DNA of 18,094 nt from a bacterium (GTDB lineage: Bacteria > Blakebacterota > Blakebacteria > Blakebacterales > Blakebacteraceae), in the NCBI GenBank assembly GCA_025774205.1, contig JALGWK010000106.1, positions 1 to 18,094 of the forward strand, read 5' to 3'. Under the pieces are notes generated by a model. The model saw only the letters and a list, made by a program, of their open reading frames with translations, ran no database searches and was not told where the DNA came from. Positions 139-17,791 of the stretch are shown here, piece by piece (the first letter of the stretch is position 1; the number at the start of each line of letters is the position of its first letter). Made by a program: the position numbers and the translations under genes.

Positions 139-244
139 GGGGTGCTTCTCCCGCGGAAACAAATGGGCCTTATTCCATCCCTGAACGTACTGCGCGTAGA
201 TCCGATGAAGGCTCTCCAGGCAGAGTAAGCGCCTCAGATGGAGA

Positions 245-370
245 AGAACCGCAGATCGCCGAAGATGTCATCCGTATCTTCTGTTGATCCACCCACCGGC
301 ATGGGGAGAACCGCAGATCGCCGAAGATGTCATCCGTATCTTCTGTTGATCCACCCACCGGCATGGGGAG
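245..370. repeat. Exact 62-bp tandem duplication
   Basis: Bases 245-308 and 307-370 are identical, giving two adjacent copies with a period of 62 bp. Each copy includes the 3'-terminal codons of the class V aminotransferase (reading LPMPVGGSTEDTDDIFGDLR on the minus strand). Because 62 is not a multiple of three, the second copy is read out of frame and the natural stop at 234-236 is bypassed. The lack of any mismatch between copies indicates a very recent event or an assembly artefact. Confidence 0.97.
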
Positions 371-1194
371 TGTCGCCGCGAACGTACGAGCCTCATCAAG
401 GTAGCGTGGATAGAGCTTCCGGCGCTCCTCCTCACTCAGGCTCTCCGGATCGAGACATTCGTCCTTCAGGGCATATTCGAGCGAGAAGGACTGGATCACT
501 TCCTCATACTCCCGGTGACTCCAGGCTCCGCTGCGGTTGTCGAACTCGTAGAGAGGGAGAAAGCGACACCCCTCGCGCGCCACGAAGTCGATCGCGTCGA
601 GGATGAACTCCACGTCGGTGTCATCCATGATGTAGTGCAGTCCGATCCGGCACCAGCCGGGCTTGATCCCCTGATACCCCTCACTGATCCACCGGCGGAA
701 CTGCTCCGAGGTGTCGTCATCGATACCGAGCAGGCGATGCCCGTACGGACCGGCGCAGGAACAGCCGGCCCGGGACTGGATGCCGAAGAGGTCGTTCAGA
801 AGAACGGTCACGAACTTCGGATGGAGATACCCGCCCCGGGGATCTTTCACATTGAAGGAGATGATACAGATACGCTGTTCCGGATCAGGATTGCCGAGGA
901 CTTCTATGAGGGGATTGCCGCCCATCCTGGCCATCGCCCTCCGGGTGAGTTCCTGTTCCCGTTCCTCGATCGCCTCCACCGTGATGGCATTTTTGACCAT
1001 GAACGCGAGGGCGGCCTTCATGATCTGCAGCACCCCGGGGGTGCCCGCCTTTTCCCGTTCCTCGATATCGGCGATGAAGTCGTGGTCCCCCAGGCCTACG
1101 TAATCGACGGTCCCCCCGCCGCACCCCGGTCGAACCGGGGCCTCCCAGGAACTTGTGAGGCGAGATGAAGACCGCGTCGAGGGAAGGATCTCCT

Positions 1195-1239
1195 CCCTCC
1201 AGCGGGGTGTGCCCCCCCGGGGTATCCCCCGCTGGAGGG
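1195..1239. repeat. Perfect 13-bp inverted repeat inside a coding region
   Basis: The left arm 1195-1207 (CCCTCCAGCGGGG) and right arm 1227-1239 (CCCCGCTGGAGGG) are exact reverse complements. They are separated by 19 nt that contain a further C-run/G-run pairing. The element lies within the class V aminotransferase and encodes the Gly/Pro-rich peptide PPAGDTPGGHTPLEGG, just before the conserved LDAVFISPHKF segment. Its position between conserved blocks suggests an inserted palindromic unit or a locally expanded loop. Confidence 0.85.
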
Positions 1240-2024
1240 TTCATGTCGATCTTCACGTAGGGCGCGCTGGCGGCATAATCGAAGCAGGCCAGGGCGCCAT
1301 GCCGGTGCAGGATCCGGGCGATCTCGTTCACCGGGGTCAGCATCCCCGTTACGTTGGAGGCAGCCGAAAACGATCCTATCTTTAACCGGCCTTCATAACG
1401 GGGATCGGTGAGGATCTCCTCGAGGTGGTCGAGATCGATCTGCCCCTCCGCGTTGAGACCGGTCGTGACGACCGTCGCCAGTCCCTGCCGCCAGGTGACC
1501 TCGTTCGAGTGATGCTCGAACGGCCCCACGATGACCACCGGCTGATGCTCCCGGATGAACCGGTACCACGCCTCGAGGTCGCCCCCCTCCGGATATTCCT
1601 CGAACATCCGGGAGATCAGCTGCCATGTCGCCGGCGGGAGAGCCACCCCGACCAGTTGCTGGAACTTGTCGATGGCAGCGGTCGCGCCGGTGCCGACCGG
1701 GATGATCCGCCCCTGCGGGCCGGCGTTGACGGCATCCTTGATGATCCGTCCGGCCTCCTCCATGAGCCGGCTCATGCTGCGGCCGGTGATATCATCCTCG
1801 GTATGGGTATTGGCGTACTGTCGCTGGATATCCTGCAGGTACCGTTCGATGAAGGAGAGGTTGCGGCCGGAGGCGGTGTAGTCGCAATAGACCATCAACC
1901 GCTCCCCGAAGGGGGTCTGGATAATGGAGTCCACGCCGACGCTCTGGCCGCGCAGGAAAGCGAAATCTATCTCAGCCGGTTTCAACATGCATCACCACCC
2001 CTGATCCCCTTCATCTTGTCCCCT

Positions 2025-2324
2025 TCATCCCAGCTGACCGGAGAAGAAGAGTCGTCCGGTCCTCAGTTCCTCTTCCACCGCCTGCTGGGTCGTCATCTCC
2101 AGTACGATGGTGACATGATCGAGCGGTTCAGCATCGAGCCGTCCGATCAGTCCGCCGACGATCTCCTGGTCGCGGATCTCCAGTATCTCCCGGTATCTGG
2201 CTGCCATCCTCAGGCGGAGGCCGATATTATCTCCGGTGACGTTCTCCGCCGCTGTCCGGAGTTCGTCGATCGTAGCGTAACGTGCCTCGATATCATTGAT
2301 GGTTACATGGTTCCGCAGATCCAC
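2025..2324 (-). CDS. Small unknown protein between two aminotransferases
   Basis: I do not recognise this family. The protein is about 99 residues, soluble, with mixed charge and probably alpha/beta content. There is no signal peptide, membrane segment or cysteine motif. GTG at 2324-2322 is chosen as start because a strong GGAAGGAG site sits 8 nt before it. An in-frame ATG at 2345 would add seven residues but has no visible ribosome binding site. The gene begins 32 nt after the class III aminotransferase stop and ends 36 nt before the class V aminotransferase start, so co-transcription is likely. It could be a specificity or accessory factor for one of the flanking PLP enzymes, but nothing in the sequence proves that. 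Confidence 0.65.
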   Translation of the reverse strand: MDLRNHVTINDIEARYATIDELRTAAENVTGDNIGLRLRMAARYREILEIRDQEIVGGLIGRLDAEPLDHVTIVLEMTTQQAVEEELRTGRLFFSGQLG

Positions 2325-2356
2325 GCCGTGGTCTCCTTCCATCATCGAACTGCCGT

Positions 2357-3676
2357 TCAGGAACTCAATACTGTTCTGACCGCCTCCAGGGTTACGGCTA
2401 TGTCCTCATCGCTGTGGGCCAGTGACGCAACCGAGTGGAGGGCTGATGAGGGGGTCATGTAGATCCCGTGTTCGAAGAGCGAGAGAGCGAACCGCTGATA
2501 GCGACCACGATCCACGTGGGCACAGAACTCCCTGAAATCGGTGATCGCGGAACGCTCGGTAAACAGAATCTGGAGCATCGGCCCCACTCCCTGGGCGATC
2601 GCGGCGGTGCCGGTCTCCTCGAAGACCCGGTTCAGGCCGCCGGTGAGACTCTCACCGATCTCCCACAGACGTTTGAAGGCTGCCCCGTCATCCTTCGAAA
2701 GTTCGGTCAGGTTTACGCGAGAAGCGAACATGCCGGCCCGGGAGGCGTTCTGGGTTCCGTAGTGAAGCACGCCGCCCCAGGCGAGCGCTTCCATGATCTC
2801 ACCCCGTCCGGCGAAGGCCGCGACCGGGAGCCCGGCTCCGAGCCCCTTCCCCATCGTCACGATGTCGGCGTCAACACCGTAGAGTTCCTGGCATCCTCCC
2901 GGCGCTATCCGGCACCCCGTCACCGTCTCATCGAGGATGAGGAGGATGTCATTGGCCCGGGTGAGTTCCCGGAGTCCCTGCAGGTATCCGTCGGCGGGCG
3001 GGATCACACCGATGTTGGCCATGATCCCTTCGGTGATCACGGCCGCGATCGAACCACGGTAGTTGCTGATGGCCCGTTCGACAGCCTCGAGATCGTTCCA
3101 GGGGATCACGATCGTGTCTTCAAGCGCTCTCCGGTTCAGGCCGGAACTGTCCGGGATCTTCACCGGATCGTTGGGGTGACCGAAGAGGACGGCAGGCTGG
3201 GGATGCGCGCTGACCAGGTAATCGTCGTACCAGCCGTGGTAGTGGCCTTCGAACTTGATGAAGCGGGGCCGACCGGTGAAACCCCGGGCGAGTCTGATGG
3301 CGGCCATCGTGGCCTCGGTGCCGGTATTCGCGAAGCGGACCTTTTCAGCCCCCGGAACGAGACCGGATATGAGTTCGGCCACCTCGATCTCCACCTCGGT
3401 CGCGGCGGCGAAGAGAGTACCGGTCGACGCGGCCTCACTGATGGCTTCCACGATGAGGGGGTGAGCATGCCCGAGAGGGAGCGCTCCGTAGGCCATCATC
3501 CAGTCGATGTAGCGGTTACCGTCCACATCCTCGATCGTGGCTCCCTCGCCCCGTTTGATGAACAACGGGTAATCACCATAGTTCGCGGGACCGCGGGAGG
3601 GTGAACTCCCTCCCTCGACCAGGACCTTCAGGGCCCGTTCGAAGAGTTCCTTCGATCGATCAGTCTTTATTACCAT
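2357..3676 (-). CDS. Class III aminotransferase, glutamate-1-semialdehyde aminomutase-like
   Basis: A full-length, 439-residue PLP enzyme of the HemL-like branch of class III aminotransferases. Visible motifs are the phosphate-binding NTGTEA (117-122), the HYHGWYDD segment (145-152), the cofactor aspartate in LILDET (246-251) and the Schiff-base lysine Lys277 in MGKGLGAG. A genuine heme-pathway HemL normally reads DEVMTGFR and LGKIIGGG at these places. The differences (DETVTGCR, MGKGLGAG), together with neighbours unrelated to heme, suggest a paralogue acting on another amino or oxo acid. The start is ATG 3676, preceded by GAGGAAGG. It follows the Rossmann dehydrogenase by 31 nt, consistent with one operon. 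The frame is intact. Confidence 0.85.
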   Translation of the reverse strand: MVIKTDRSKELFERALKVLVEGGSSPSRGPANYGDYPLFIKRGEGATIEDVDGNRYIDWMMAYGALPLGHAHPLIVEAISEAASTGTLFAAATEVEIEVAELISGLVPGAEKVRFANTGTEATMAAIRLARGFTGRPRFIKFEGHYHGWYDDYLVSAHPQPAVLFGHPNDPVKIPDSSGLNRRALEDTIVIPWNDLEAVERAISNYRGSIAAVITEGIMANIGVIPPADGYLQGLRELTRANDILLILDETVTGCRIAPGGCQELYGVDADIVTMGKGLGAGLPVAAFAGRGEIMEALAWGGVLHYGTQNASRAGMFASRVNLTELSKDDGAAFKRLWEIGESLTGGLNRVFEETGTAAIAQGVGPMLQILFTERSAITDFREFCAHVDRGRYQRFALSLFEHGIYMTPSSALHSVASLAHSDEDIAVTLEAVRTVLSS

Positions 3677-3707
3677 GTCTGGTTCGCCTTCCTCTTCAAC
3701 GGTTTGT

Positions 3708-4844
3708 TCAGGGAAGATTGACGCCGAGCCGCACGGCGTATTCTCTGAATCTCCTGATCAGTTCCCGGCCCCGCTCCTCCGCTTCCTCGGGGTGAAGGCT
3801 CGGACAGTCGAAACCGAGTTCCTCTTTCATGATACCGGTCGTGGTATCGGTGAACCTGGCGGTCCCATCCGCTGCTATCTCTAAGATCCCGTCGAAGGAG
3901 TGTGAGGCCTCGTTGATGGCGATCGCATCCTCCGCGGTCAATCCCTCGATCGGGGCGAGATCTATCTTTCCGGAAGAGACCACGACCGGGTAGCCGCCGG
4001 GCAGTCCGCCCGGCGCGGGGGCATGCAGAAGGGCCGGTTTCTCGCTGAAAAGCGCCTTCACCAGACGCAGGGAGGACCCCGCCGTCAGGAAGCTCCAGGC
4101 CGGTCCGTCCGGCAGGGGATAGGGAGTATGGAGCAGAAAGTGGGCGTCTACCTCGTTCGTGATCTCCCGGCCTTCATGCTCCACCCGAAGGAAGTATGGT
4201 GGAAATTCTCTCCCTGGAGCAACGGCGCTGAACACCGCCGGTTCGAAGGAATGGTGGGCCACGAGGTAGATGACGATCTCATCGTAGGGAATTCCGGTCT
4301 TTTCGGCGATGAGGTGCTGCAGCTTCGGGACCATCTCATCCAGGTTCCCGACGCCGGCCAGCGGCGCCAGCCCCACCCTGCCCAGCATGCAGTTCACCAC
4401 GTCGGGAAAGGGAGCGGTCAGCGCGATCCCGTCATAGTCTGCCTCACGGAGCCCCTTCATGACGCGCCAGGTCAGCGGAAAGTGGATCGGCAGCCAGGCG
4501 CCGAAGCGCGCCTCGGAGAGACGTTCACGCTGCGGCGCGGGCAGGAGATCGGTCAGCCACCAGGTCTGCATCGATACGGTGCTGAGCACGAGATCGGGTT
4601 TGACCTGGTCGACCGCCTCGGCCAGCGCTCCCTCAACGGTCACATCGAGGGGTTGGAACCGGATTTCGGGCCGACAACCCTGGGCCAGGGCTCCCAGCCG
4701 GGCCAGGTTGCAACGGGCCTCTCCGTCACGGTCGGGGAGATCGCAGGCCACAATCGGTCCGATCGCGTCATCCCGGGCGAAGAGCTCGAGCATCGCGCTC
4801 CCCAGATGACCGAGACCGATGAGCATGACAGTCGGATTCGCCAT
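3708..4844 (-). CDS. Rossmann-fold dehydrogenase (saccharopine-dehydrogenase-like)
   Basis: The 378-residue protein opens with a dinucleotide-binding strand-turn-helix, GLGHLG (Gly10, Gly12, Gly15). An acidic residue at the end of the second strand (CDLPDRD, Asp35) is typical of NAD preference. The rest fits the two-domain pattern of saccharopine/opine dehydrogenase relatives: an N-terminal cofactor domain, then a catalytic domain with an AHHSFEP segment near residue 200. The exact substrate cannot be read from the sequence. Its place between a DUF3052 gene and two aminotransferases suggests oxidation or reduction of an amino acid, imine or keto acid linked to transamination. The start is ATG 4844, three nt after the DUF3052 stop, with GAGGAAC as ribosome binding site inside the upstream gene, so translation is probably coupled. 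Confidence 0.72.
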   Translation of the reverse strand: MANPTVMLIGLGHLGSAMLELFARDDAIGPIVACDLPDRDGEARCNLARLGALAQGCRPEIRFQPLDVTVEGALAEAVDQVKPDLVLSTVSMQTWWLTDLLPAPQRERLSEARFGAWLPIHFPLTWRVMKGLREADYDGIALTAPFPDVVNCMLGRVGLAPLAGVGNLDEMVPKLQHLIAEKTGIPYDEIVIYLVAHHSFEPAVFSAVAPGREFPPYFLRVEHEGREITNEVDAHFLLHTPYPLPDGPAWSFLTAGSSLRLVKALFSEKPALLHAPAPGGLPGGYPVVVSSGKIDLAPIEGLTAEDAIAINEASHSFDGILEIAADGTARFTDTTTGIMKEELGFDCPSLHPEEAEERGRELIRRFREYAVRLGVNLP

Positions 4845-4847
4845 CGT

Positions 4848-5225
4848 TCAGTTCCTCTTTTTCCTGCGCTGGGTGAAGCAGAGGCCGGACCAGGTCTCGT
4901 CAATCGAGCTGACCTTGAAGTCGACCAGCCCGGTCCCCAGTCCGAAATCCCTCACCACCTGCTGGGTGAGGTCGCTCTTTACACCTGACGCCTTCTTCGG
5001 CCAGATGAGCCACAGCCGGCCGCCCTGCTTGAGGATCTTCTCCGCCGCCGGGAACCGTTTCCCGAGCTCCGCCAGTGATCTCACGAAGAGCAGGATGATA
5101 TCATTCTCACCACGCGCCTGTCTGCGGATTCGCACCTCCGGCGGCAGCGTCCCCAGGGCTGAGTCAAAATCATCAGGAGTTCCGAGGAGGGGTAGACGTG
5201 GATGAGGAGGACGCGGTTCATTCAC
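4848..5225 (-). CDS. DUF3052 family protein with a short N-terminus
   Basis: The core matches DUF3052: GTPDDFDSALGTLPPEV, IILLFVRSLAEL, GGRLWLIWPKKASGV, then DETWSGLCFTQRR at the C-terminus. The function is unknown. It starts at GTG 5225-5223, which overlaps the pyrDK stop as GTGA, a classic coupling arrangement, giving 125 residues. Related proteins usually carry about 20 more residues before the GTPDDF-like motif, including a KPG turn. Here only NEPRPPHPRLPLL precedes it, so the N-terminus is either divergent or lost. An alternative ATG at 5221 is in another frame and opens a 46-codon frame (MNRVLLIHVYPSS...) that does not lead into the DUF3052 core. Confidence 0.75.
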   Translation of the reverse strand: MNEPRPPHPRLPLLGTPDDFDSALGTLPPEVRIRRQARGENDIILLFVRSLAELGKRFPAAEKILKQGGRLWLIWPKKASGVKSDLTQQVVRDFGLGTGLVDFKVSSIDETWSGLCFTQRRKKRN

Positions 5226-6864
5226 ACTACGGTCTTGCAGCCGGGTCCCCCCGATCCGTGAGGATCGATGATCTTCCGGCCGGTCTTGTCGCGGGTGTAC
5301 TCGTCCGGTGTGAATTCGGCGGCGGTGAAGACGGGGCCGTCGATACAGAGGCGTTTGCCGTTGGGGATCGAACACTTGCCGCAGATACCGATGGCACAGC
5401 TGGTCACCCGCTCCACGAGGTGGTAGATATCTCCGGCAGGAGCGAACCGGCGCTCGACCCGGTCGGCCGCGGCCATGGCCACCTCCGGCCCGCAGTTGAA
5501 GTAGAGCGCTCCCTCGACATCCTCCCGTTCCAGCACCTCTTCGAGCAGATCGCCCACATACCCCTGATAGCCCGCGCTCCCGTCATCGGTCGACACATCG
5601 AGTGGTCCCAGGGCCCGCAGTCGCTCGATGTAGGTCAGTTCATCTTCGGTGACCGCGCCGAGCACGAACCGCTTCGGGCCGGGATGATGTTCGGCCGCGT
5701 GCATCACCGGCGCGATTCCGCAGCCGGCTCCCACGAAGACGACCTGCCGGTCCTCGGGGAAGGAGAATTCCCTGCCGTACGGACCCCGGATCCCACCAGT
5801 TCCAGTCCTTCGCGATCACTGGCGACCGAGAACGGCTTCGAGAAGCCGGTGCCCACCTTGAGGAAGACGAACTGCCCGATCCCGGCGTCGAGGTTCTGAT
5901 GGAATCGGAGGAGTCTGATCGATTCACCGTACTCTTCTATCTCCGACACCACGAACGGGGTGTATTCCATCAGCTTCTCGGAGAGGGTCATCTCCGCGGC
6001 GAGGTCGGTACCCGAGACCAGGTCCTGTTCGAGCTGGTGGAAGTAGTGCTTCACACCTTCCGAATCGAGTCCCCCGAGGGCGGTTCCGATCGCGAAGTGG
6101 AAATCGGGATCGATCTCCTGGAGGGTTCTGATGTTGGCCGCGCCCCTGATCCCTCCCATGCAGATGATCGGCAGGGAGACCACCGACCGGATCCGCCTGA
6201 CCGCGGCCACGGTGACCGGGAAGAGGAGTCCGCCCGAGAGCCCGCCAAAGCCCTTGCTGATCTCCGGATTGGGACCCCCGATCGTGTTGATGGCCGAAAG
6301 GGCGTCGGCACCGGCCCCGGCAGCCGCCGCGGCGACCTCTTCGAGCCGGTCGACACCGGCATTCAGCTTCACGATGAGAGGTCTGTCTGTCGCGCGCCTT
6401 GAAGCCCTCACGATCGAGGCGACCACCTCGGGATTTCCGCCGATAAGGATCCCGCCCTTTTCGATATGGGGGCAGGAGAGATTCAACTCGATCCCGTCGA
6501 CGTCCCCGGCCCGATCGTACTCCGCGACCGCGTGTTCGAAACCCTCTTCGTTCCCTTCACCGATCTGCGCCATGAGGAACACGTCGTCAGAGACCGATTC
6601 CCGCAGGTTCCGGAAGCCTTCGATCATGAGATCGAGACCGGGATTGGCATACCCGACCGCGTTCCAGAGGGAATCGGGGGCAGGCTGGCTGATGATATCC
6701 TCCGGGTTGCCCTCCCGCGGTTCGATGGTGGTGCTCTTCCCCACGAACCAGCCGATCTGGGGGACATTCTGCAGCATCCAGCGGGCGGTATCCTCGTTCG
6801 TTGCCACCACCCCCGAAGGGATCCCCCAGGGGCCCTTTATCTCTTTACCCAGGAATGAGTACAT
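5222..6864 (-). pseudogene. pyrD: Fused dihydroorotate dehydrogenase PyrD-PyrK, frameshifted in the reductase half
   Basis: Residues 1 to about 300 form a class 1 dihydroorotate dehydrogenase barrel that oxidises dihydroorotate to orotate: GIPSGVVATNEDT, the catalytic-loop NLSCPH, INTIGG, GGLSGG, CMGGIRG. The same frame runs without a stop into a PyrK-type FAD domain (KPFSVASDREGLELV). At Val357 (5796-5794) the frame breaks. The sequence resumes in another frame with GIRGPYGREFSF, VGAGCGIAP (NAD/FAD domain) and a [2Fe-2S] motif CAIGICGKC...RLCIDGPVF, ending at 5222. About 18-20 residues usually found between LELV and the RGPYG motif are absent; the phase fits a 3n+1 nt deletion. The start is ATG 6864, because GGGAGG lies 4 nt upstream; an upstream GTG at 6882 overlaps the pyrF stop. 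Since this enzyme should be essential unless another copy exists, a sequence error is possible. Confidence 0.85.
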
Positions 6865-6868
6865 GGAA

Positions 6869-6874
6869 CCTCCC
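6869..6874 (-). promoter_or_regulatory. Ribosome binding site deciding the pyrD start
   Basis: GGGAGG on the minus strand ends 4 nt before ATG 6864-6862. It favours this ATG over the upstream in-frame GTG at 6882, which overlaps the pyrF stop codon. The resulting protein begins MYSFLGKEIKGPWGIPSG. Confidence 0.7.
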
Positions 6875-6878
6875 GGTC

Positions 6879-7646
6879 TCACAGAACCGCCGCGATATCC
6901 TTCAGAACATCCCTGGCTGCTGCCTGCCGATCGTCGGCGGCGGTGATCGCCCGTCCGATCACCAGCAGTGATGATCCTGCCGCGACTGCCCGCCCCGGGG
7001 AGAGGACCCGTTTCTGATCCTCACCGGCGGGTGTGGTGGTACCCCTGATGCCCGGGGTGACGAAGAGGAATTCCGGACTCATCCGGTTCTTCAGGGGCTC
7101 CATGTCCGCCGCCGAGCAGACGATGCCGTCCAGACCGGCTTCTTCGGTCAGCAGGGTCAGGTGCGCGACATGCTCCGCGACCGTTCCGGGTATTCGACAT
7201 TCAGTATTGAGTGCCTCTTCATCCAGGCTCGTAAGCACGGTGACCGCCAGTACCTTCGGCTTCTTCCCGCCGGGGGAATCCGCCTCTTCCACCCCGATCC
7301 GGGCGGCTTCCATCATCGCCAGCCCGCCGGAAGCATGGACGTTGAACATCGCCACCCCGAGTCCGGTGGCCGCTCCGGCAGCCCCTTTCACCGTGTTGGG
7401 TATATCGTGGTATTTCAGATCGAGGAACACCTCGGCACCGCCGTCGGTCACCAGCGATATGACCTCGGGGCCGAAGCGGGTAAACGACTCCTTGCCCACC
7501 TTGAAGAGACCGACGAAGGGGCTCAGCTCCTCGATCCTCTCCCGGACCTCATCGATCGAGTCCAGGCCATCAAGGGGCAGGCAGACCATCCGGCGCGCGA
7601 GTTCCTCTTTTGCCGACAGTTCTATCACCCTGCCATCCTTTCTCAC
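6879..7646 (-). CDS. pyrF: Orotidine 5'-phosphate decarboxylase
   Basis: Converts OMP to UMP, the last step of de novo pyrimidine synthesis, in the cytoplasm. The 255-residue TIM-barrel protein has an N-terminal substrate aspartate in CLPLDGLD (Asp26), the catalytic Asp-x-Lys-x-x-Asp array in LDLKYHDIPNT (Asp76, Lys78, Asp81), and the phosphate-binding TPGIR and VIGRAIT segments near the C-terminus. Length and motif order are normal for the group of PyrF that is fairly short. The GTG start at 7646 overlaps the pyrE stop as GTGA. A second in-frame GTG at 7628, with AAGGA 7 nt upstream, is an equally credible start giving 249 residues. The gene is intact and sits directly between pyrE and pyrDK. 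Confidence 0.95.
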   Translation of the reverse strand: MRKDGRVIELSAKEELARRMVCLPLDGLDSIDEVRERIEELSPFVGLFKVGKESFTRFGPEVISLVTDGGAEVFLDLKYHDIPNTVKGAAGAATGLGVAMFNVHASGGLAMMEAARIGVEEADSPGGKKPKVLAVTVLTSLDEEALNTECRIPGTVAEHVAHLTLLTEEAGLDGIVCSAADMEPLKNRMSPEFLFVTPGIRGTTTPAGEDQKRVLSPGRAVAAGSSLLVIGRAITAADDRQAAARDVLKDIAAVL

Positions 7647-8329
7647 TTCTCGATCCTGGGAAAACCGTGCTGGTCACCCCAGGAGAATGGATCCATCCGC
7701 CACTCATCGAGCAGAGCGATCTGGTCGGTGGTGAGTCGTCCGCTCACGCGGGCAGTCTCAAGAAGGACGTCGAACGTCAGAAGGGATCTCACTTCGCACG
7801 GTGGATCGAGATTCGCGAACTGCTCCGAAGCGCGATCGAGTCCATAGTTGAAGATGGAAACACACCATCCACAGGTGCCGCTGGCCACCCTGACCGCTTC
7901 GACCGCTTTCGCCGAACTCCCACCGGTGGAGATAAGGTCTTCGATGACGATCACTTCGCGGCCTGCCAGGTCCGATCCGGCATCGATCCCTTCGATCCGG
8001 TTCCGGAGACCATGTCCCTTCGGTTTGTCACGGATATAGATGTACGGAAGATCGAGCAGGTCAGCCAGCGAGGTACCGTGGGGGATACCGGCAGTGGCGG
8101 TCCCGGCGACCACATCGATGGTGATATTCTCCTGCTCGATGATCAGGGCCAGTCCCCGGGCGATCATCTTCCTGCTCTCCGGATCGAAAAGGAACATCCT
8201 GTTGTCATTGTATACGGGCATCCGGTAACCGGAGGCCCACTGGAACGGATCATCCGGATCGAGTTTGATGGCGCCGATGCTCAATCCCTGCTCGGCCAGC
8301 TTGCTGCCGATATCCTCAACCGTGTTCAC
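7643..8329 (-). CDS. pyrE: Orotate phosphoribosyltransferase
   Basis: Attaches PRPP to orotate to give OMP, upstream of PyrF. The 228-residue protein carries the orotate-site SGYRMPVYNDNR motif (residues 33-44), a flexible catalytic loop RDKPKGHG (100-107) and the PRPP-binding loop VIVIEDLISTGGS (126-138). A C-terminal extension after about residue 185 (TFDVLLETARVSGRLT) is seen in many bacterial OPRTs. The start is GTG 8329-8327 with GGAAGG 7 nt upstream. No in-frame ATG is better placed. It is the first gene after the promoter at 8360-8387 and overlaps pyrF by 4 nt. The frame is intact. Confidence 0.95.
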   Translation of the reverse strand: MNTVEDIGSKLAEQGLSIGAIKLDPDDPFQWASGYRMPVYNDNRMFLFDPESRKMIARGLALIIEQENITIDVVAGTATAGIPHGTSLADLLDLPYIYIRDKPKGHGLRNRIEGIDAGSDLAGREVIVIEDLISTGGSSAKAVEAVRVASGTCGWCVSIFNYGLDRASEQFANLDPPCEVRSLLTFDVLLETARVSGRLTTDQIALLDEWRMDPFSWGDQHGFPRIEK

Positions 8330-8359
8330 GATTCCGCCTTCCTGATACAGGTCGTGCGT

Positions 8360-8387
8360 ATGGTATGCGACCGGTCCCCGATGTCAA
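8360..8387 (-). promoter_or_regulatory. Sigma-70-type promoter of the pyr operon
   Basis: On the minus strand a perfect -35 TTGACA (8387-8382) is followed by a 16-bp spacer and TACCAT (8365-8360, 4 of 6 to TATAAT). Transcription would start near 8352, leaving a leader of about 25 nt before the pyrE GTG. That is too short for a classic pyrimidine attenuator, so any control must act at the promoter itself. Confidence 0.6.
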
Positions 8388-8397
8388 GACAGGTCGC
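8367..8397. promoter_or_regulatory. Inverted repeat straddling the pyr -35 box; operator or terminator candidate
   Basis: The arms GCGACCGGTC (8367-8376) and GACAGGTCGC (8388-8397) are complementary at 9 of 10 positions and enclose 11 nt that include the -35 hexamer. Centre-to-centre spacing is 21 bp, two helical turns, as expected for a dimeric repressor site. The element also lies only a few bases after the upstream thioredoxin stop, so a hairpin at the end of that transcript is an alternative. No U-tract follows. Confidence 0.5.
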
Positions 8398-8402
8398 TTC
8401 AC

Positions 8403-9218: not shown

Positions 9219-9326
9219 ACTGTCACCTCTGTAATTATTGATGGACATCTTTCCCATTAAACGAAATCACCTGTCCTTTTGCCATGTCAGAGTCGGAGTT
9301 TCCGATTACCATGCTCCGCACTCGAT

Positions 9327-10079
9327 ATGACCGATTCAGATAATAGCAGAGAGCGCTCAGGGATCCTCGCCGCGATCGGCTTTCCCCTCCTCATCGTGGG
9401 GATCCTGGTTCTGGTCTATGCCTTTCGGCAGGAGATCTGGAACATCTTTTCGACCCCGGAGAACGTCCGTGAATGGGTATCCGGGTGGGGGATCACCGCG
9501 CCCCTGATCTTTATCGGAGCCCAGATACTCCAGGTTCTGGTGTTCATTATCCCGGGCGAGACGGTCCAGGTCGCCGGAGGCTATCTCTTCGGGTTCCTGG
9601 GAGGTCTGGGACTCACCACGCTCGGGATCGCCATCGGATCCGCGGTAAATTTCCACCTTGCCCGTGCCCTCGGAACCCCGTTCGTGACCAGGTTCTTCAA
9701 CAAGGATCAGGTCCACAAGATAGAACGGATCGCGGCAAGTCCCCGGGCCCAGATCGGCTTCTTCCTGCTCTTCGTGATCCCGGGAATACCGAAAGACATC
9801 CTCTGCTACGTGGCCGGTCTCTCCCCGATGCGGTTCTTCTTTTTCCTGGGAGTATCGATGGTCGGTCGGCTGGCCGGCATCATCGGCAGTACTCTTATGG
9901 GGAGCGCCGCCGCCGGACAGAAATGGACGATCGCGATCGTCATCCTCGCGGTCTCCGTGGTTCTTTTCGCGGTGGGATTCATCTACCGCGCCCGGATCGA
10001 GAAGTGGGTGGAACGGTACGCGGGCGAGACCGAAGAATCGGATGATCCCGACCGAGAAAGGGAAGAACGGTCGGAGTGA
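9327..10079 (+). CDS. VTT/TVP38-DedA-type membrane protein
   Basis: A 250-residue integral membrane protein of the SNARE-associated (VTT/TVP38) family. Segments in order: an N-terminal helix (ILAAIGFPLLIVGILVLVYA), a pair of helices containing the re-entrant-loop signature IIPGETVQVAGGYLFGFLGG, then LFVIPGIPKDILCYVAGLSP with the second conserved proline-glycine loop, and a final helix ending in a charged C-terminal tail. Relatives are linked to lipid scrambling and membrane homeostasis; substrate specificity here is unknown. ATG 9327 is chosen over the in-frame ATG at 9279 because it leaves a short polar head before the first helix, though neither has a strong ribosome binding site. This is one of only two plus-strand genes in the window, divergent from the thioredoxin gene. 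The 108-nt space between them holds no promoter I can defend. Confidence 0.85.
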   Translation: MTDSDNSRERSGILAAIGFPLLIVGILVLVYAFRQEIWNIFSTPENVREWVSGWGITAPLIFIGAQILQVLVFIIPGETVQVAGGYLFGFLGGLGLTTLGIAIGSAVNFHLARALGTPFVTRFFNKDQVHKIERIAASPRAQIGFFLLFVIPGIPKDILCYVAGLSPMRFFFFLGVSMVGRLAGIIGSTLMGSAAAGQKWTIAIVILAVSVVLFAVGFIYRARIEKWVERYAGETEESDDPDREREERSE

Positions 10080-10121
10080 CCGCTCTCCCCGAAGAACCAT
10101 CAGAGAACCGCGCGGGTACGC

Positions 10122-10574
10122 CTACTTCTTCTTCTCGAAACTGAAGGCCCCCTCATCGGCCTGCTCACCTCCCACGAAGACCTGGAAGGTCCCCGACATC
10201 CGGTTCCCTTCGACCTTCCCCTTGATGTAGACATCCGCGTCGCTCATGAAGGTGTAACAGGAGAACTCAGCGCCTTCATGCTTGAAGTCCTCTATGTCGC
10301 TCCACAGTTCCTCATCCATCACTCGCGCCATCAGGGATCCTGAATATGATCCGCTCTCGTAAACCAGCGTGATCCCCATCTCCCCTGAAAAATCGGAGGC
10401 GTCAAAGGTCCCCTCCCAGGTGCCGGCGAACATGGCGGCGTCCCCGGCCCCTCCGCCGCTCCTGGTATCAACTTTGGCAGCCGAACCGGCACAACCCGCG
10501 GCAGCCGCCAGCAGGGTGAGAACGACCGCGGATCGGATGATCTTCGTCACCCGTGCCCCTCTGTATTCTGTCAT
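10122..10574 (-). CDS. Small lipoprotein of unknown function
   Basis: The 150-residue protein begins at ATG 10574 with AAGGGAG upstream. It has a basic N-terminus, a hydrophobic segment and a lipobox LAAAAGC (Cys near residue 28), so it should be lipidated and held in the inner or outer membrane. A Gly/Ser-rich linker follows, then a beta-rich domain starting GTWEGTFDASDF with repeated GxYxG/GTF elements (SGSYSGSL, GNRMSGTFQVF). This is typical of small lipocalin-like beta barrels described only as hypothetical. It ends in a lysine tail. It is the last gene of the molybdoenzyme/thiI/TerB run, 75 nt after the TerB stop, and converges on the VTT gene with 42 nt between them. Confidence 0.75.
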   Translation of the reverse strand: MTEYRGARVTKIIRSAVVLTLLAAAAGCAGSAAKVDTRSGGGAGDAAMFAGTWEGTFDASDFSGEMGITLVYESGSYSGSLMARVMDEELWSDIEDFKHEGAEFSCYTFMSDADVYIKGKVEGNRMSGTFQVFVGGEQADEGAFSFEKKK

Positions 10575-10649
10575 CTTGAACTCCCTTCGAACCGTCGGAA
10601 CAGGTCAGGCTTCCCTCTGCATAACGGAAAGAAGGGCAGGCAGGTTTCG

Positions 10650-11151
10650 TCAGGGTTGCTCCTGACGGTTTTTCAACACCTCCAGGTGTTCCCGGAAGCG
10701 GGAGCGGACGGCGATGAAATCGCGCTGGGAGAGATGCAGTTCCCCGGAGATCTTCCGGATTTCCGCATCCTCCACCGAAGTGATCGATTCTGACCTGGTC
10801 GAATTCCCGCGTCACCAGATACCCTGCAGTCCCTCCGAAGAGCTGATTGTGCGTCTTGGCCATCTGCACGACGATCATCGCCTGCTCGGGCGGGATGCTG
10901 CCGTACTCCACGACCTGGCGCTCCATCTCGCGGGTCTCCTCGTCATCGATCTCCATATCGGCGTGAGCGACACGGCCGAGGATGTAGGCAAAGAGCGCGA
11001 TATATCGGGCCTGATCGGGATCGAGACTGTCGAGAGCTTCGACGATCTTCCGTACGGTTCCGATCGACGAGTGATCACTCCCTTCCCCGACCTCTCCGAC
11101 TTCTCCGTCACCACCGCCCCCACCCGCTCTCAACCTGTCCAGTATCCCCAT
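10650..11151 (-). pseudogene. TerB-domain protein, frameshifted with loss of about 20 residues
   Basis: The gene starts at ATG 11151 (MGILDRLRAGGGGG), with AAAGGAGG upstream, only 4 nt after the thiI stop. After a Gly-rich linker comes a TerB/DjlA-type helical domain: YIALFAYILGRVAHADMEIDDEE with its metal-binding-like acidic loop, then QLFGGTAGYLVTREFDQV. After Val120 (10794-10792) the frame breaks. Downstream, another frame gives ESITSVEDAEIRKISGELHLSQ and ends in LKNRQEQP at stop 10650-10652. The family normally has a second helix pair (LLxxLFxVAAAD) between these blocks, which is missing here, so about 20 residues have gone; the phase fits a 3n+2 nt deletion. Read as written, the first frame runs on into the lipoprotein gene. 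TerB domains are linked to stress and tellurite-type responses; no specific role can be given. Confidence 0.8.
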
Positions 11152-11155
11152 GATC

Positions 11156-12346
11156 TCAAGCCTCCTTTGCCTCGACTCCGTCAGTGCCGATCGATACGAT
11201 CTCGGTCTCTTCAGCGATCTGCCCCACCAGGGCTTCGATCGCCATGCTCTCTTCCAGCGCCACAACCTTCGCGATCGTGGCCTGCGTACTCGGGTTGCGC
11301 GAGATGAGCGAGCAGCAGTCCTTGTAGGCGCCGGTTGCGTCATCCCACATACCTATACGTCGAACCAGGTCGACCAGTTCGGTCTTGTCCATACCGATCA
11401 GGGGACGGAAGACCGGGATCGACACAGCCCGGTCGACGACCACGATGTTCGGCATGGTCTGCGAAGCGACCTGACCAAGGCTGTCCCCGAGGACCAGCCC
11501 GTCATATCCGAACCGTTCCGCCAGTTGCTCCCCCACCCTCACCATGAGCCTGCGGAAGGCAACCAGTTCATAGCGCTGCAGTCCGCTGTCGGAACCGAGC
11601 AGGGCCACTTCGAAGGGCGCGTAGTCGGCCAGGTAGATCCGGGTCGAGCGGGTGAAGACGCTCAACCGGGACCAGAGGGCGGGCATCTTCGAGGCATGCA
11701 CCGCTTCGCTCCGGGAGAGCGCGTGGAAGTGGAGGAAATCTACTTCAGCGCCGCGTCGGGCCATGTACCAGGAGGAGGCAATCGAATCGAATCCACCGGA
11801 GAGGAGCGAGAGAACCCGGCCATTGGTCCCGACCGGCAATCCGCCCGGGCCCTCGACGCGGTCGAGCCAGATCAGGCTCTCCCGCTTGCGGGCTGATATG
11901 TGTACGGTCACCTCCGGATGGTCGAGATCGACCCGGGCGCCGGTACGCTCCCGTACGACCGCGCCGATCCGGTTGTTGATGTCCGAACTGGTGAAGGGGA
12001 GTGACTTCTCGCCCCGGCTGCTGTCGATGGCGAACGAGGCCATCCCGCCCTCGCGATCCTCCACGATCGCCAGGACGGTCTCTTCGATGGCTTCCAGGGT
12101 GCTCTCGCAGCTGCACACCTCGGCGCACCAGGCGATGCCGAACACACCGGCCAGCCTGTCCAGGGAGCTCTGGAGCAGATCCCGTTCGACCTCGATGAGC
12201 AGCTGACTCGACTGCCGGTCCACCTGGTCATCGCGCAGACCGAGGGCCTCCCTGATGTTCCGGACCAGCCGGTTGATGAAGTCGGGCCGGTTCCTGCCCT
12301 TCAGGGCTATCTCGGCGTACCTCACGAGGATCGTGGAGGAATCCAT
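11156..12346 (-). CDS. thiI: tRNA 4-thiouridine / thiazole sulfurtransferase ThiI
   Basis: A 396-residue cytoplasmic enzyme that adenylates tRNA U8 for 4-thiouridine formation and may serve thiazole synthesis. The N-terminal ferredoxin-like part (YAEIALKGRNRPDF) and THUMP domain (to about residue 165) precede the PP-loop ATPase motif SGGFDS (183-188). The catalytic domain continues with VLGDSLGQVASQT and RPLIGMDKTELV, typical of ThiI. The C-terminal rhodanese domain of E. coli ThiI is absent; a CC pair in YKDCCSL is the likely site of the disulfide-forming cysteine. The start is ATG 12346, 3 nt after the membrane-anchor stop, with GGAGG overlapping that gene's end. It is intact. Its place in a molybdoenzyme operon may reflect shared sulfur chemistry or simple linkage. 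Confidence 0.93.
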   Translation of the reverse strand: MDSSTILVRYAEIALKGRNRPDFINRLVRNIREALGLRDDQVDRQSSQLLIEVERDLLQSSLDRLAGVFGIAWCAEVCSCESTLEAIEETVLAIVEDREGGMASFAIDSSRGEKSLPFTSSDINNRIGAVVRERTGARVDLDHPEVTVHISARKRESLIWLDRVEGPGGLPVGTNGRVLSLLSGGFDSIASSWYMARRGAEVDFLHFHALSRSEAVHASKMPALWSRLSVFTRSTRIYLADYAPFEVALLGSDSGLQRYELVAFRRLMVRVGEQLAERFGYDGLVLGDSLGQVASQTMPNIVVVDRAVSIPVFRPLIGMDKTELVDLVRRIGMWDDATGAYKDCCSLISRNPSTQATIAKVVALEESMAIEALVGQIAEETEIVSIGTDGVEAKEA

Positions 12347-12349
12347 GCG

Positions 12350-13198
12350 CTATCCTCCCGTTCCCTTTCTGATGATCCCTTCGACGCGCGTGACCTCGGC
12401 CCCGGTGGTCCTCTGGATCCCCAGCGCGTAGAACGAATACCGGTCTATCAACACCCCGGCAGTCACACAGATGAGCGCGATGGTCGGTATCCTCAACAGA
12501 AAGCATCCCGCCCCCAGGAGGTCGACGATCACGATCCTGACCAACAGGTGGCTCCGTCGCCAGGTGATCGCGTTCGGATTCCTTGTCGCGCCGACCGACC
12601 TCATCCGCTCGATCGTTTTCCAGCGTGCTTCGGTCAGGACGATATCGATCGCGATCAGAAGGTACAGCAAGGAACTCACTCCCTCCACCGGTACGGTACC
12701 CGCGGACGCGTGGAGGAGCACTCCCCAGAGCAGGCCGATGACCAGTGGAGCCGGAACCGCCGCTCCCCGCCAGGTCATCTGACCCCCGAGACGATAGACA
12801 ATGCCGATCGCCGGCAGGAGGAGGAGTGACGTGACGACCGCCGTCGGTCGCGCGATCGCGGCGATGGCGGGTCCGGCGATGAGACTTCCCGCGAGTGACG
12901 CCAGCAGCACCGTAACCAGGAACACTTCAATGCTGAGCGGGCTGCGGAGGATTCCGGTCAGGGCATACGGCATCCGGGTCCTCCGCCCAAGGTGGCGGAG
13001 CGAGAAGATGAGCCCGCCCCCGAGCAGCGCCAGACTGCCCAGCATGATCTCGTTGCCCGGCCAGATAACCGATCGGGCCGTGATCCAGAGGAGAGGGAGG
13101 GCACCCATGATCCCCGCACCCATCATCCCGAGGGAGGTGAAGATGACCAGGGGGAGGTCCCCCGCCGGATCGAATCTGCCGCTTCCCGTGACCTTCAC
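12350..13198 (-). CDS. DmsC/NrfD-type membrane anchor subunit
   Basis: The 282-residue protein has about eight hydrophobic segments, including LVIFTSLGMMGAGIMGALPLLW region helices, LGSLALLGGGLIF, VFLVTVLLASLAGSLIAGP and ALICVTAGVLIDRYSFYALG. The overall layout matches the DmsC anchor of DMSO-reductase-like complexes, which holds the catalytic and iron-sulfur subunits at the membrane and exchanges electrons with quinol. The SPLSIEVFL and SSLLYLLIAIDIVLTEARW segments are consistent with that family. The start is GTG 13198-13196, overlapping the ferredoxin-subunit stop as GTGA. Upstream in-frame codons lie inside that gene and lack sense. It is followed after 3 nt by thiI. Confidence 0.78.
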   Translation of the reverse strand: MKVTGSGRFDPAGDLPLVIFTSLGMMGAGIMGALPLLWITARSVIWPGNEIMLGSLALLGGGLIFSLRHLGRRTRMPYALTGILRSPLSIEVFLVTVLLASLAGSLIAGPAIAAIARPTAVVTSLLLLPAIGIVYRLGGQMTWRGAAVPAPLVIGLLWGVLLHASAGTVPVEGVSSLLYLLIAIDIVLTEARWKTIERMRSVGATRNPNAITWRRSHLLVRIVIVDLLGAGCFLLRIPTIALICVTAGVLIDRYSFYALGIQRTTGAEVTRVEGIIRKGTGG

Positions 13199-13776
13199 TG
13201 TTCCAGCACCTTCCGCAGTTGTTCCAGGCGCTTCTCCCGCAGGTTGCCGCCCGGCTCCCTGAAACGGAGGGAGGGCCGGCATCCGGCCGGATCGATGAAA
13301 CCGGGGATCGAGGCGGGCGAGGTCGCTTCAAGGTCTTCATCGGTGAGTCGAATCAGGGCGCCGACAGGACAGGCCGCGATACAGGCTGGTGAGTGACCGT
13401 TGTCGACCCGTTCATGGCAGAAATCGCACTTCATCATGATCCCGGACCGCTCGTCGAAGACCGGCGCGCCGAAGGGACAGGCCATCTCGCAATAACGGCA
13501 GCCGAGGCACCGCTCCCCGTCCAGCACCACGATGCCGTCAGCGCGTCGTTCGTAGGCTCCGGAGGGACAGGCCCGGAGACAGGCGGGATCTTCGCAGTGA
13601 TGGCAGGCCACCGAGAAATGCCACGTCGGACCGCCCGGAACCCGGTCGAGGTTGAAGGGCACGATCCGACGCCAGGGGGTCTCATCGGACCACCCCTTCT
13701 CCATGCGGCAGGCAAGCACACAGGCGCCGCAGCCGACGCATCGGTCGAGATCGAGTATGAAGCCTGCCCTGCTCAT
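13195..13776 (-). CDS. DmsB-like iron-sulfur electron-transfer subunit
   Basis: A 193-residue ferredoxin with four [4Fe-4S] cluster motifs. Cluster one is CVGCGACVLAC (Cys13, 16, 19, 23), followed by CHHCEDPACLRAC, CLGCRYCEMAC and CDFC...CIAAC. This sixteen-cysteine array is the standard wiring subunit between a molybdopterin catalytic subunit and a membrane anchor. The ATG at 13776 overlaps the catalytic-subunit stop as ATGA; a GTG or ATG further upstream would lie inside that gene. The C-terminal tail of about 45 residues (PASIPGFIDPAGCRPSLRF and a coiled basic end) lies beyond the last cluster. No signal peptide is present, consistent with a cytoplasmic-facing complex or export in company with another subunit. 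Confidence 0.92.
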   Translation of the reverse strand: MSRAGFILDLDRCVGCGACVLACRMEKGWSDETPWRRIVPFNLDRVPGGPTWHFSVACHHCEDPACLRACPSGAYERRADGIVVLDGERCLGCRYCEMACPFGAPVFDERSGIMMKCDFCHERVDNGHSPACIAACPVGALIRLTDEDLEATSPASIPGFIDPAGCRPSLRFREPGGNLREKRLEQLRKVLEQ

Positions 13777-15785
13777 ACCCGCCCGACCTCCACCAGGCAC
13801 TCATAGAAGGTGGCGCCGTGGTTCATGTCGGTGATCCCGTCATCGGTCAACAGGTTCAGCCACGGATCATCCTCCCGGCACCGGCCTTCGATGACGTGGA
13901 CCACACCCTCACGGAGACCGTGGTCGAGATGGACCTCGATCACCACGCGACCCCGGTCGTTCCACACGACCGCCCGGTCACCATCAGCCAGGCCGCGGGA
14001 TCGGGCGTCAGCCGGATTGATATCGAGTCGACGGGGACGATCGACACCCCTGATCCAATCGAGATTCCCGAACTGGGAGTGGATCCGCTCCCTGGTCTTG
14101 CAGGTCAGCAGCTGGAGGGGCCATAATTCCGCGGCTGTTGAGGCAGACCCCTCATCCAGCGGTTCCCATGAGGGCAGTGGATCGACTCCCCACAGCTCGG
14201 CGGCTTCCTCCGACCTGAACTCGATCTTCCCCGACCGGGTCGGGAAGGTTCGATTGCTCCAGGCCACCTCACCGGTTCCCTTCAGCACGACCGGTTCCGA
14301 CTCCATCCGCTCGAGGAGGTTCCCCTCCCCTTCCGGCAGCATCGCGCGAAGCAGTTCCCGCCGATCCCCGTCGAACCAGTGGGTGTCGAATCCGAACCTC
14401 CCGCACAGATCCCTCCAGATCTCCGTCTCCGGTCTTACCTCGCCCGGAGGGTCCAGAACCTTCTGACGCAGCTGCAGGTAGGGGTGCCAGTAGGCGGTTA
14501 CGAGGTCCTCTTCCTCGAAGAGGGTTTTGGCCGGCAATACGTAGTGGGCCATGCGGGCGGTGTCGGTGAGGAACTGATCGACGACCACGAGCAGGTCAAG
14601 TCGGGAGAGCGCCTCCCTCACCCGGTCCGTCCGGGGATGCTGGCTCACCGGGTTGGCCTTCTCGAACCAGGCCCCCCGTACCGGCGGATCATCCAGTTCG
14701 AGGAGCGCGGCCCCGAGTCGCGAGGTCGGGAAGGATCGTGTCTCCCGGTCGGGAACCGGAGGGAGCGGCGGCGGCCGCAGGCCGTGACTGGCGAGGTTCG
14801 CGTACTGCCATCCCCCGCCCCGGACACCGATGTTCCCGGTCAGGGCGGGCAGCAGCGCCACGGCGCGCATTGTCTGTCCGGCCTGATGGTGCCGCTGCAG
14901 TCCGAAGCCGGCGATCAGCAGTGCCGGTCGGGTTTCGCCGTAACGGATCGCGAGGGCGCGGATCTCATCCACTCCCACACCGGTGATCTCCGCCACCCGT
15001 CCGGGGGTGAACGCACGCGCCCGCTCCAGGTACGGATCCACGCCGACAGCAGTCGATTCGAGGAAGGATCGGTCGATGAGTCCCTCCGCCTCGAGGATCG
15101 CCGCGATCCCCAGGGCGAGAGCGCCGTCGGTGCCGGGACGGGGCTGGAGATGGATATCCGCCGCGTCGGTGGTATCGGTCGACCGGGGATCGATGACCGC
15201 CAGGCTCGCTCCCTGCTGCCGGGCATCCAGGATCAGCCTCATCTGATGCACGTTCGTCTCGGCCGGGTTGTGCCCCCACAGCAGGATGAACCGGCTCTCC
15301 CGGGTCAGCACCGGGTGGTTGTGGAGATTGTCTCCATAGGTGAGTCGGCTGGCTTCCAGGCCGGCCGGCCAGCAGAGGTCGCCGTGAGCCCGGGTCGGTC
15401 CCCCGTACTGGTTCCAGAACACCTCGGCCAGTGACGACAGCGCTCCATGATTGCCGGAACCTTCATAGAAGAGGGCGGCCTGCGGACCGTGACGTTCGCG
15501 CAGTTCCTTCAGGCCGGCGGTGATCCCGTCGAGGGCCTCCTCCCAGCCGATCTGATCAAATCCCTCCCCGTCAAGCCGGCGGCGGAGGGGTGTGAGGATC
15601 CGATCGGGCGACGAGATCCGCTCCACGTAACTGAGCCCCTTCAGGCAGACGCCGCCGTCGGTCGCGGGATTGAGAGGGTCTCCCTCGATGGAGACGATCC
15701 GTCCCTCCCTGACCGTCACGAGCATGCCGCAGGTACAGTAGCAGTTCCGGGGACAGACCGTGCGTATGACCCGATCACCTTCCAT
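13773..15785 (-). CDS. Molybdopterin oxidoreductase catalytic subunit (DMSO-reductase superfamily)
   Basis: A 670-residue bis-MGD enzyme. The N-terminal [4Fe-4S] motif is C11-x3-C15-x3-C19-x27-C47 (CPRNCYCTCGM ... GVCLKG), with an extra Cys17 inside it and the conserved Lys49. The candidate molybdenum ligand is Cys138 in HGDLCWPAG. Cofactor-binding segments include LLWGHNPAETN, VIDPRSTDT, the GFGLQRH region, GNIGVRGGG and a C-terminal MGD domain with INPADARSRGLADGD and MNHGATF. The protein starts MEGDRVIRTVCPRNC and has no twin-arginine signal, so it should stay in the cytoplasm, unlike DmsA. The substrate is unknown; polysulfide, thiosulfate, formate or S/N-oxides are all open. The start is ATG 15785, 8 nt after the mobA stop, so cofactor maturation and enzyme are made together. 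Confidence 0.9.
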   Translation of the reverse strand: MEGDRVIRTVCPRNCYCTCGMLVTVREGRIVSIEGDPLNPATDGGVCLKGLSYVERISSPDRILTPLRRRLDGEGFDQIGWEEALDGITAGLKELRERHGPQAALFYEGSGNHGALSSLAEVFWNQYGGPTRAHGDLCWPAGLEASRLTYGDNLHNHPVLTRESRFILLWGHNPAETNVHQMRLILDARQQGASLAVIDPRSTDTTDAADIHLQPRPGTDGALALGIAAILEAEGLIDRSFLESTAVGVDPYLERARAFTPGRVAEITGVGVDEIRALAIRYGETRPALLIAGFGLQRHHQAGQTMRAVALLPALTGNIGVRGGGWQYANLASHGLRPPPLPPVPDRETRSFPTSRLGAALLELDDPPVRGAWFEKANPVSQHPRTDRVREALSRLDLLVVVDQFLTDTARMAHYVLPAKTLFEEEDLVTAYWHPYLQLRQKVLDPPGEVRPETEIWRDLCGRFGFDTHWFDGDRRELLRAMLPEGEGNLLERMESEPVVLKGTGEVAWSNRTFPTRSGKIEFRSEEAAELWGVDPLPSWEPLDEGSASTAAELWPLQLLTCKTRERIHSQFGNLDWIRGVDRPRRLDINPADARSRGLADGDRAVVWNDRGRVVIEVHLDHGLREGVVHVIEGRCREDDPWLNLLTDDGITDMNHGATFYECLVEVGRV

Positions 15786-15793
15786 GTGACCTA

Positions 15794-16471
15794 CTATATG
15801 GAAGAGGAGGAAGGGTTGGAAGCCGATCCCCCCCGCAGGAGTTCGAAGTCGGCCGGCGTATCCACGCTCCAGAGCGCGGCTTCCAGATCTTCCGGGATCG
15901 CGATCCGCTCGAACCGGCCGGTCTCGATCACGACCCTGGCCGAGGAGGAGAAGGAGGTGGAGAAGGTGGTGGTGGAGGAAGAGGTGGTGGCGAAGGTGGC
16001 GGTGGATCCTTCACCGGAGTCGACGTCGGGCCGGGCCAGGACGGCAGGTGTATATACCGAGAAGAGCGGCTGAACCGTTCCCGATCGGTCGATCACGGTC
16101 AGCCCCTCTTCGCCCGTCCGCCGACCTGCCTGTCCGATGAGCCATTCAAGCGCGTCCGGGGTGACCAGCGGCATGTCGCAGCCGATTACCAGGAGCGGTG
16201 ACATGAAATGTTCGAGCAGTCTGGTGATCCCGTGCAGGGGGCCGGCAAACGGGATCAGGTCGGGGATGAAGGGGATCGACGGAAGCGTCCAGGCTTCGGG
16301 GGTATCCATGCCTGAAACCGCGACAGGCTGTTCCGTCGCGAGCGCGTTCCTGACCGCCCGCTCCAGCATGGTCTCCCCGTCCAAGACCAGGTGCGCCTTG
16401 TCGATGCCCATCCGACGGCTCCTGCCGCCGGCCAGTACGCCGATGGAGATCAGCCCGCGATCAACGATCAT
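15794..16471 (-). CDS. mobA: Molybdenum cofactor guanylyltransferase MobA
   Basis: Joins GMP to Mo-molybdopterin to give MGD. The 225-residue protein has the GTP-binding signature LAGGRSRRMGIDKAHL (13-28), the metal-site GCDMPLVTP (97-105), IDRSGTVQPLFSVY and the C-terminal WSVDTPADF. Between residues 156 and 177, where relatives have a short amphipathic helix, this copy has a run of Ser and Thr with a few Phe and Ala, encoded by a simple pyrimidine-rich repeat. That run may have replaced or expanded the helix; both flanks stay in frame. The ATG at 16471 overlaps the stop of the upstream thioredoxin gene as ATGA. It lies immediately before the molybdoenzyme it would serve. Confidence 0.9.
   Translation of the reverse strand: MIVDRGLISIGVLAGGRSRRMGIDKAHLVLDGETMLERAVRNALATEQPVAVSGMDTPEAWTLPSIPFIPDLIPFAGPLHGITRLLEHFMSPLLVIGCDMPLVTPDALEWLIGQAGRRTGEEGLTVIDRSGTVQPLFSVYTPAVLARPDVDSGEGSTATFATTSSSTTTFSTSFSSSARVVIETGRFERIAIPEDLEAALWSVDTPADFELLRGGSASNPSSSSI
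15942..16005. repeat. Purine-rich simple-sequence tract within mobA
   Basis: The plus strand carries about 64 bp built from GAG, GGT, GGA and GAA units with some twenty GG dinucleotides; only a few bases are C. The coding (minus) strand is therefore almost all pyrimidine plus A and encodes Ser/Thr. Such a tract can form two-tetrad G-quadruplexes or H-DNA and is prone to slippage. Being in frame, it changes the protein without stopping it. Confidence 0.85.
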
Positions 16472-17545
16472 GGATACCGCGGAAGGGCGATCCCCCCGGC
16501 CAGGATCCGTCCCAGCATGACGGTATCACCGCCGCGGACCAGATTTCCCTCCCGATCGATGAGCATCTCGAAATACCCCAGCGTTCCGAATGGATCAAAG
16601 GACCCTCCGAGACCGTCAAAAACGAGTGGAAAGGGCAGCCGTCTCCCCTGCCAGTAGAGTTCCGAGATCCCGCCGGGACCGTAGAGGATCGGTTCGAGAT
16701 CATCCAGATTGTCAACTTCCGGGTGCTGCGTGTGTACGATCACGATGGCGAACTCAGATCGCCGGTCGGAAAACTGCTCGAAGAGATCAATCATCGCAGG
16801 CAGACTGCTGCGAACGCACGACTTTCACGTCGCGGTAGTCATCGAAACTGATATCGAGGTCGGCGCCCGCTGCATCGGTGACCTGCAGGTCGGGCGGATT
16901 CCTGCCGTAATACGTCGCAATGGGAGTCACACCGAAATCGAGGGCGCCCAGATCAAGATCTTCACCAGGTCCAATCCTGAAAGAGCCGTTCTCCCGGCGG
17001 AACTCGATACCGGGAGTGTAAAGATTGTAGTCGTACGATCCCGGCGGCAGGAGGATACGGAAGGCCTCCTGGTGGGCGATCGTCGACGGCAGGGCGCCGG
17101 GGATCGGAACGAGGATGGAGACATAGTTCTCCGTCGGCTCTTCCCCGAAGAAGGTGCAGACAAGTTCTCCCCTGACCGTCGCCAGCGGCTTCAGTTCGAT
17201 GACGATCTCGTCATTGCCCGTTCTGACCACAAACATTCCCCCGGTGCCGCTCTCGCTGTCGACCGCCATGAGAGCATCCGGCCGACCGGTGAACGGAAGA
17301 CCTGAGAACCGACCATCGTGATCGGTGGTGACCGCCCGATCGGCGGCCAGCCTGCCATCGATCATGGCCCAGTTGAAGCCGACCTCCATCCCGACCGCCG
17401 GCCGATCGAGGACGTCCACTACCCTGCCGCTGAGCGCGCGTTCCGCCTGTTCCGCTTCCCGGTCGTTCTCCGCGGCAGGCGGGTTCACGGGGAGTGAGAC
17501 CTGCACCACGGCCGCGATGAGGGTGGTGATCACGATCCCGGTCAT
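16468..17545 (-). pseudogene. TlpA-like thioredoxin with N-terminal carboxypeptidase-regulatory-like domain, active site deleted
   Basis: The start is ATG 17545 with GGAGAGGAG upstream. A hydrophobic N-terminus (MTGIVITTLIAAVVQVSLP) suggests export. Residues 40-130 form a beta-sandwich of the carboxypeptidase-regulatory type (SGRVVDVLDRPAVGMEVGF ... TTDHDGRFSGLP). The thioredoxin domain begins with LDISFDDYRDVKVV and then breaks at Val243 (16819-16817). A second frame continues as CVRSSLPAMIDLFEQF, HTQHPEVDN and YFEMLIDREGNL to the stop at 16468. Alignment to the intact thioredoxin in this window (VVLVFTGHWCGPCRSEYP) shows that about ten residues, including WCGP of the redox motif, are gone; the phase fits a 3n+2 deletion of roughly 32 nt. 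As written, translation ends at 16787, and 16794-16468 is only the detached C-terminus. It overlaps mobA. Confidence 0.82.
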
Positions 17546-17651: not shown

Positions 17652-17791
17652 CGACCAGGCTGCTGAGCCGGGTGCGGCGGGTACCTCAAGTCTCACCTTC
17701 CTCTACCATTTTAGGGAAACCGGGACCGTCGCCCCTGCGTACCACAACCGTACCGGGAGGTCGGTGCGAAACCCGATGGCTGGAGAAAAAC

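Follow-up and report, generated by a model that had tools for sequence, protein, structure and literature searches.

The window analysed here, a stretch of 18,094 nt, is the entire contig C348 of the draft bin G000 (527 contigs, 3.09 Mb, 85.9% complete), and it carries four genes on the minus strand whose reading frames are each broken at a point where sequence is missing. The phylum comprises four genomes only, namely G000 itself, a relative of the same genus (G001, bin Meg19_1012_Bin_119, Meg19 being a sediment core from the Guaymas Basin; PMC10290634), and two relatives of the same family (G002 and G003). The broken genes and their junctions are the following:

170-1988, minus strand: class V aminotransferase gene, broken twice, by about 50 missing nt at ~1121 and by a 62-nt duplication at 245-368
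245-368, minus strand: a 62-nt unit in two identical tandem copies, within the 3' part of the aminotransferase gene and at 245 nt from the contig end
1118-1126, minus strand: junction 1, in the aminotransferase gene, about 50 nt missing relative to G001
5222-6882, minus strand: pyrD/pyrK-like fused gene (pyrDK), with a DHO_dh domain followed by NAD-binding and DHODB Fe-S domains, broken by junction 2
5790-5797, minus strand: junction 2, in pyrDK, lacking 61 nt that G001 and G002 both have
10656-11153, minus strand: TerB-like gene, broken by junction 3; the name is that of the original prediction, and the broken frame has no Pfam match
10788-10795, minus strand: junction 3, in the TerB-like gene, lacking 59 nt that G001 and G002 both have
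16471-17545, minus strand: TlpA/AhpC-TSA-like gene, broken by junction 4; a damaged copy of a gene whose G001 copy encodes a probable selenoprotein
16828-16834, minus strand: junction 4, in the TlpA-like gene, lacking 32 nt present in G001, just 5' of an in-frame TGA

The original prediction held that four genes change frame and lack sequence at these sites, and alignment to the relatives confirms it; its estimate of 30-60 nt per gene was a good one. Sized against G001, the window lacks 50 nt at ~1121, 61 nt at ~5793, 59 nt at ~10791, and 32 nt at ~16831, and the alignment to G002 returns the same 61 nt in pyrDK and the same 59 nt in the TerB-like gene. The relatives' copies are uninterrupted at the window break points, except for the TGA of the fourth gene, and the conserved genes among those broken, such as pyrDK, retain 80-90% protein identity on both sides of the breaks with no other decay.

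Breaks, duplications and gaps across the bin

The comparison was extended to 46 readable G000 contigs (468 kb, a sample that leaves out several contigs of 2-3 kb that read as N) against 609 kb of G001, which yielded ~136 kb of comparable coding sequence. Within it, G000 has no fewer than eight additional deletions that break a frame, 10-164 nt in size:

C111: 31 nt, in an EF-G-like gene (named from its length and elongation-factor similarity, without a dedicated search)
C220: 53 nt
C302: ~56 nt (a protein-level estimate; 35 net by DNA alignment) and 10 nt
C344: 59 nt
C359: 29 and 164 nt
C371: 41 nt, with a 6-bp inverted repeat

A 20-nt difference on C356 is ambiguous, as it lies close to the end of a G001 contig. 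The density of breaks is higher in the 18-kb window contig, with its four, than in the rest of the G000 sample, and the reverse comparison reveals about three or four candidate breaks in G001 itself; some of the differences between the two bins could be true species differences or errors in G001.

Alongside the losses, G000 has many exact tandem duplications of the two-copy kind, 33-62 nt in size; six sit 234-427 nt from a contig end, among them the one at 245-368 of the window, and those on C372 and C376 are distant from contig ends. At C381, G000 exceeds G001 by 33 nt, exactly one 33-nt unit, and in the window the spacing of matches across 245-368 differs from that in G001 by 62 nt, by arithmetic from the coordinates, equal to the unit of the duplication. 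The original prediction did not mention this duplication, which is judged to be an assembly error. Moreover, G000 contains runs of 6, 11, and 21 Ns. The 11-N run falls within a gene that reads as triosephosphate isomerase, at a point where the conserved motif of this enzyme would require ~39 nt, so the gap appears underestimated; no relative's copy of this stretch was found in the sample. Lastly, contig ends in both bins overlap perfectly by 114 nt.

The in-frame TGA of the fourth gene

Next to junction 4 lie two features that concern decoding, the first of which was not mentioned in the original prediction:

16825-16827, minus strand: TGA in frame, probably read as selenocysteine, where a CxxC motif would have its first Cys (T-U-K-S-C; T-U-K-E-C in G001)
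16794-16813, minus strand: candidate bSECIS hairpin, the same in G001, with its apical loop GUC 19 nt downstream of the UGA

The G001 homologue carries the TGA at L046:2189 (G001:C171) and stays open for 360 residues as far as the contig end, this TGA being the only one in frame, while eight of eight distant homologues from other families have Cys at the same position; the first Cys of the CxxC motif is thus replaced in a second species and matched by Cys-containing homologues. The G001 protein just exceeds the cut-off of PF00578 (AhpC-TSA), with 26.4 bits against 26; the window fragment alone has no match. At eight degenerate codons that follow the UGA, G000 and G001 agree exactly, against a background of 60% per codon, which lends modest support to the selenocysteine reading. 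The hairpin fits the published bSECIS limits (PMC13188914), as do 85 of 200 random positions, and these constraints are therefore too permissive in GC-rich sequence to be decisive. A contig scan for a third TGA-bearing homologue, in a phylum of four genomes, gave only the G001 bin, and most of the frames returned by a screen for further conserved in-frame TGA codons overlapped conserved genes or lay antisense to them.

The machinery for such decoding is encoded in both genomes, which carry tRNA-Sec, SelA, and SelB, together with a SelD (G000:C412:1-276, L218; G001:C273:7717-8634, L217) whose in-frame TGA (TCAGUASKL) takes the place of the catalytic Cys of a distant relative, so that this SelD probably contains selenocysteine itself. 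Taken together, tRNA-Sec, SelA, SelB, and the TGA-containing SelD make UGA-selenocysteine decoding well supported for the lineage. In G000, selA is split across two contigs that overlap by 114 nt (C467:3671-4609, L111; C490:3-299, L112).

Judged from sequence, the product of the fourth gene is most likely a Prx/TlpA-like selenoprotein with a UxxC motif, which would add a new member to a known family. Prx-like thiol:disulfide oxidoreductases with PF00578 and a UxxC motif are tabulated as a selenoprotein family (PMC9312934, PMC13188914), and the protein resembles them in its PF00578 match and UxxC motif, in its Cys-containing homologues, and in the presence of the selenocysteine machinery in the same genomes. 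It differs from them in an N-terminal region of ~215 residues with a sub-threshold match to CarboxypepD_reg, in having close copies in no other genus of the genomes searched, and in the damage done to the window copy by the 32-nt deletion. A doubtful extension of this reading would be that, with the deletions as artefacts, the genus possesses a selenoprotein undescribed in this uncultured lineage, in which a weakly carboxypeptidase-regulatory-like N-terminal region is combined with a UxxC redoxin domain, possibly as a subfamily of its own. Annotation pipelines that treat TGA only as a stop would report this selenoprotein as truncated pieces.

Recoding had been put forward as a remote explanation of the breaks, and it is now probable at one site of the four, in the form of standard UGA-selenocysteine decoding and with no tie to the missing 32 nt. 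The 32-nt deletion is unrelated to the UGA recoding and merely adjoins the TGA.

Origin of the breaks

The original prediction tied the window breaks to adjoining palindromes and to a preceding valine codon. All the inverted repeats that it named are present, one of them (GGATCC/GGGTCC) with a mismatch, and a loss of this kind, in which short hairpins lead to sequencing dropout or replication slippage so that the adjoining segments are preferentially lost, is favoured by the perfect 7-bp inverted repeat at the aminotransferase junction, uncommon in that 3% of window positions have an arm so long within 20 nt, and by the 6-bp repeat at C371. However, junction 1 alone among the four adjoins an unusually long repeat, the remaining three having arms of 3-4, and arms of at least 4 lie within 20 nt of 69% of window positions. 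The longest arm within 20 nt averages 4.14 at 14 breaks of the G000 bin against 4.06 at random positions (P 0.42), which is background and makes hairpin-linked loss very improbable. The similar breaks elsewhere in the genome likewise vary in size without any link to palindromes. As for the valine codons, one lies within three codons of three of the eight breaks outside the window, where 22% is expected per break, and this is no enrichment; breakpoints can be placed no finer than a few nucleotides, so that whether a break immediately follows a valine depends in part on how its position is drawn. The palindrome and valine pattern of the four window breaks is chance. What endures of the proposal that the assembly loses short hairpin-forming segments is the loss in assembly, without the hairpin, whereas a hairpin-linked deletion or excision process finds no support: breaks of 10-164 nt run throughout the bin, in company with N-gaps and with exact duplications close to contig ends.

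The frames are truly broken in the given sequence, as they would be if small deletions had turned these genes into real pseudogenes in the organism or in part of its population; yet the genes affected include conserved and probably needed ones (pyrDK, the EF-G-like gene), their flanks are otherwise undecayed, and the exact duplications and N-gaps would be left unexplained, so that true gene loss is hardly to be expected. A process of a new kind that restores the genes through excision or recoding could appeal to the probable recoding of UGA as selenocysteine in the fourth gene. It is rendered extremely improbable by the 10-20 conserved residues absent from the DNA, which recoding cannot supply, and by the relatives' genes, which run uninterrupted through the same points, the fourth gene's TGA excepted.

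Conversely, the four frame-breaking deletions are very probably assembly artefacts, a reading drawn from the assembled sequence and its relatives. Sequence is missing or duplicated relative to close relatives within otherwise conserved genes, and the breaks are found bin-wide, in varied sizes and independently of any local sequence motif. Undersized gaps, unmerged overlaps, and short N-gaps together indicate faulty contig joining. Such errors would arise in short-read metagenome assembly at the step, suggested by these features, where contigs are joined into scaffolds: contigs truly tens of nucleotides apart would be joined with a gap too small or nil, so that sequence is lost, contigs truly overlapping by tens of nucleotides would be joined unmerged, so that their shared sequence is written out twice in exact tandem copies, and some joins would retain a short N run. 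We infer that the fault lies at this joining of scaffolds, i.e., in a wrong gap estimate, and likewise the type of assembler involved. The perfect 114-nt overlaps of contig ends are expected if the largest k-mer of the assembler was about 115; the Meg19-series bins from Guaymas are IDBA-UD assemblies (PMC10290634), and G000 was presumably assembled with the same program. For assemblies of the IDBA-UD type, errors of local assembly, and sequence that is duplicated at joins, have been described (Chen et al. 2020, PMC7111523), and G000 shares with them presumably unsupported joins within genes, overlaps kept as duplicates, short N-gaps, and perfect overlaps of contig ends whose length is close to that of the largest k-mer; in contrast to them, the unmerged overlaps of G000 have no Ns between the copies and are known from assembled sequence alone.

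Gene-breaking artefacts in a draft bin can thereby mimic a patterned biological process, and G000 proteins are untrustworthy at such joins. A cheap test consists in looking for breaks bin-wide against a bin of the same genus and in searching for exact duplications near contig ends.

Other repeats in the window and the bin

An Rfam search of the window found no family. Its intergenic segment at 17591-17680 has counterparts on G000:C363 (93% over 69 nt) and on contigs of G002 and G003 (77-84%), and it is a second dispersed element of the family Blakebacteraceae. The other, a dispersed repeat of ~70 nt on G000:C359 (L069:19691-19763), occurs about 20 times, complete or in part, in the G001 contigs sampled and seven times in those of G000. 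Lastly, an imperfect 15/30-nt tandem repeat with Ser/Thr-rich coding occupies 15937-16006, within a gene at 15794-16471 that, by eye, looks like a molybdenum cofactor guanylyltransferase.
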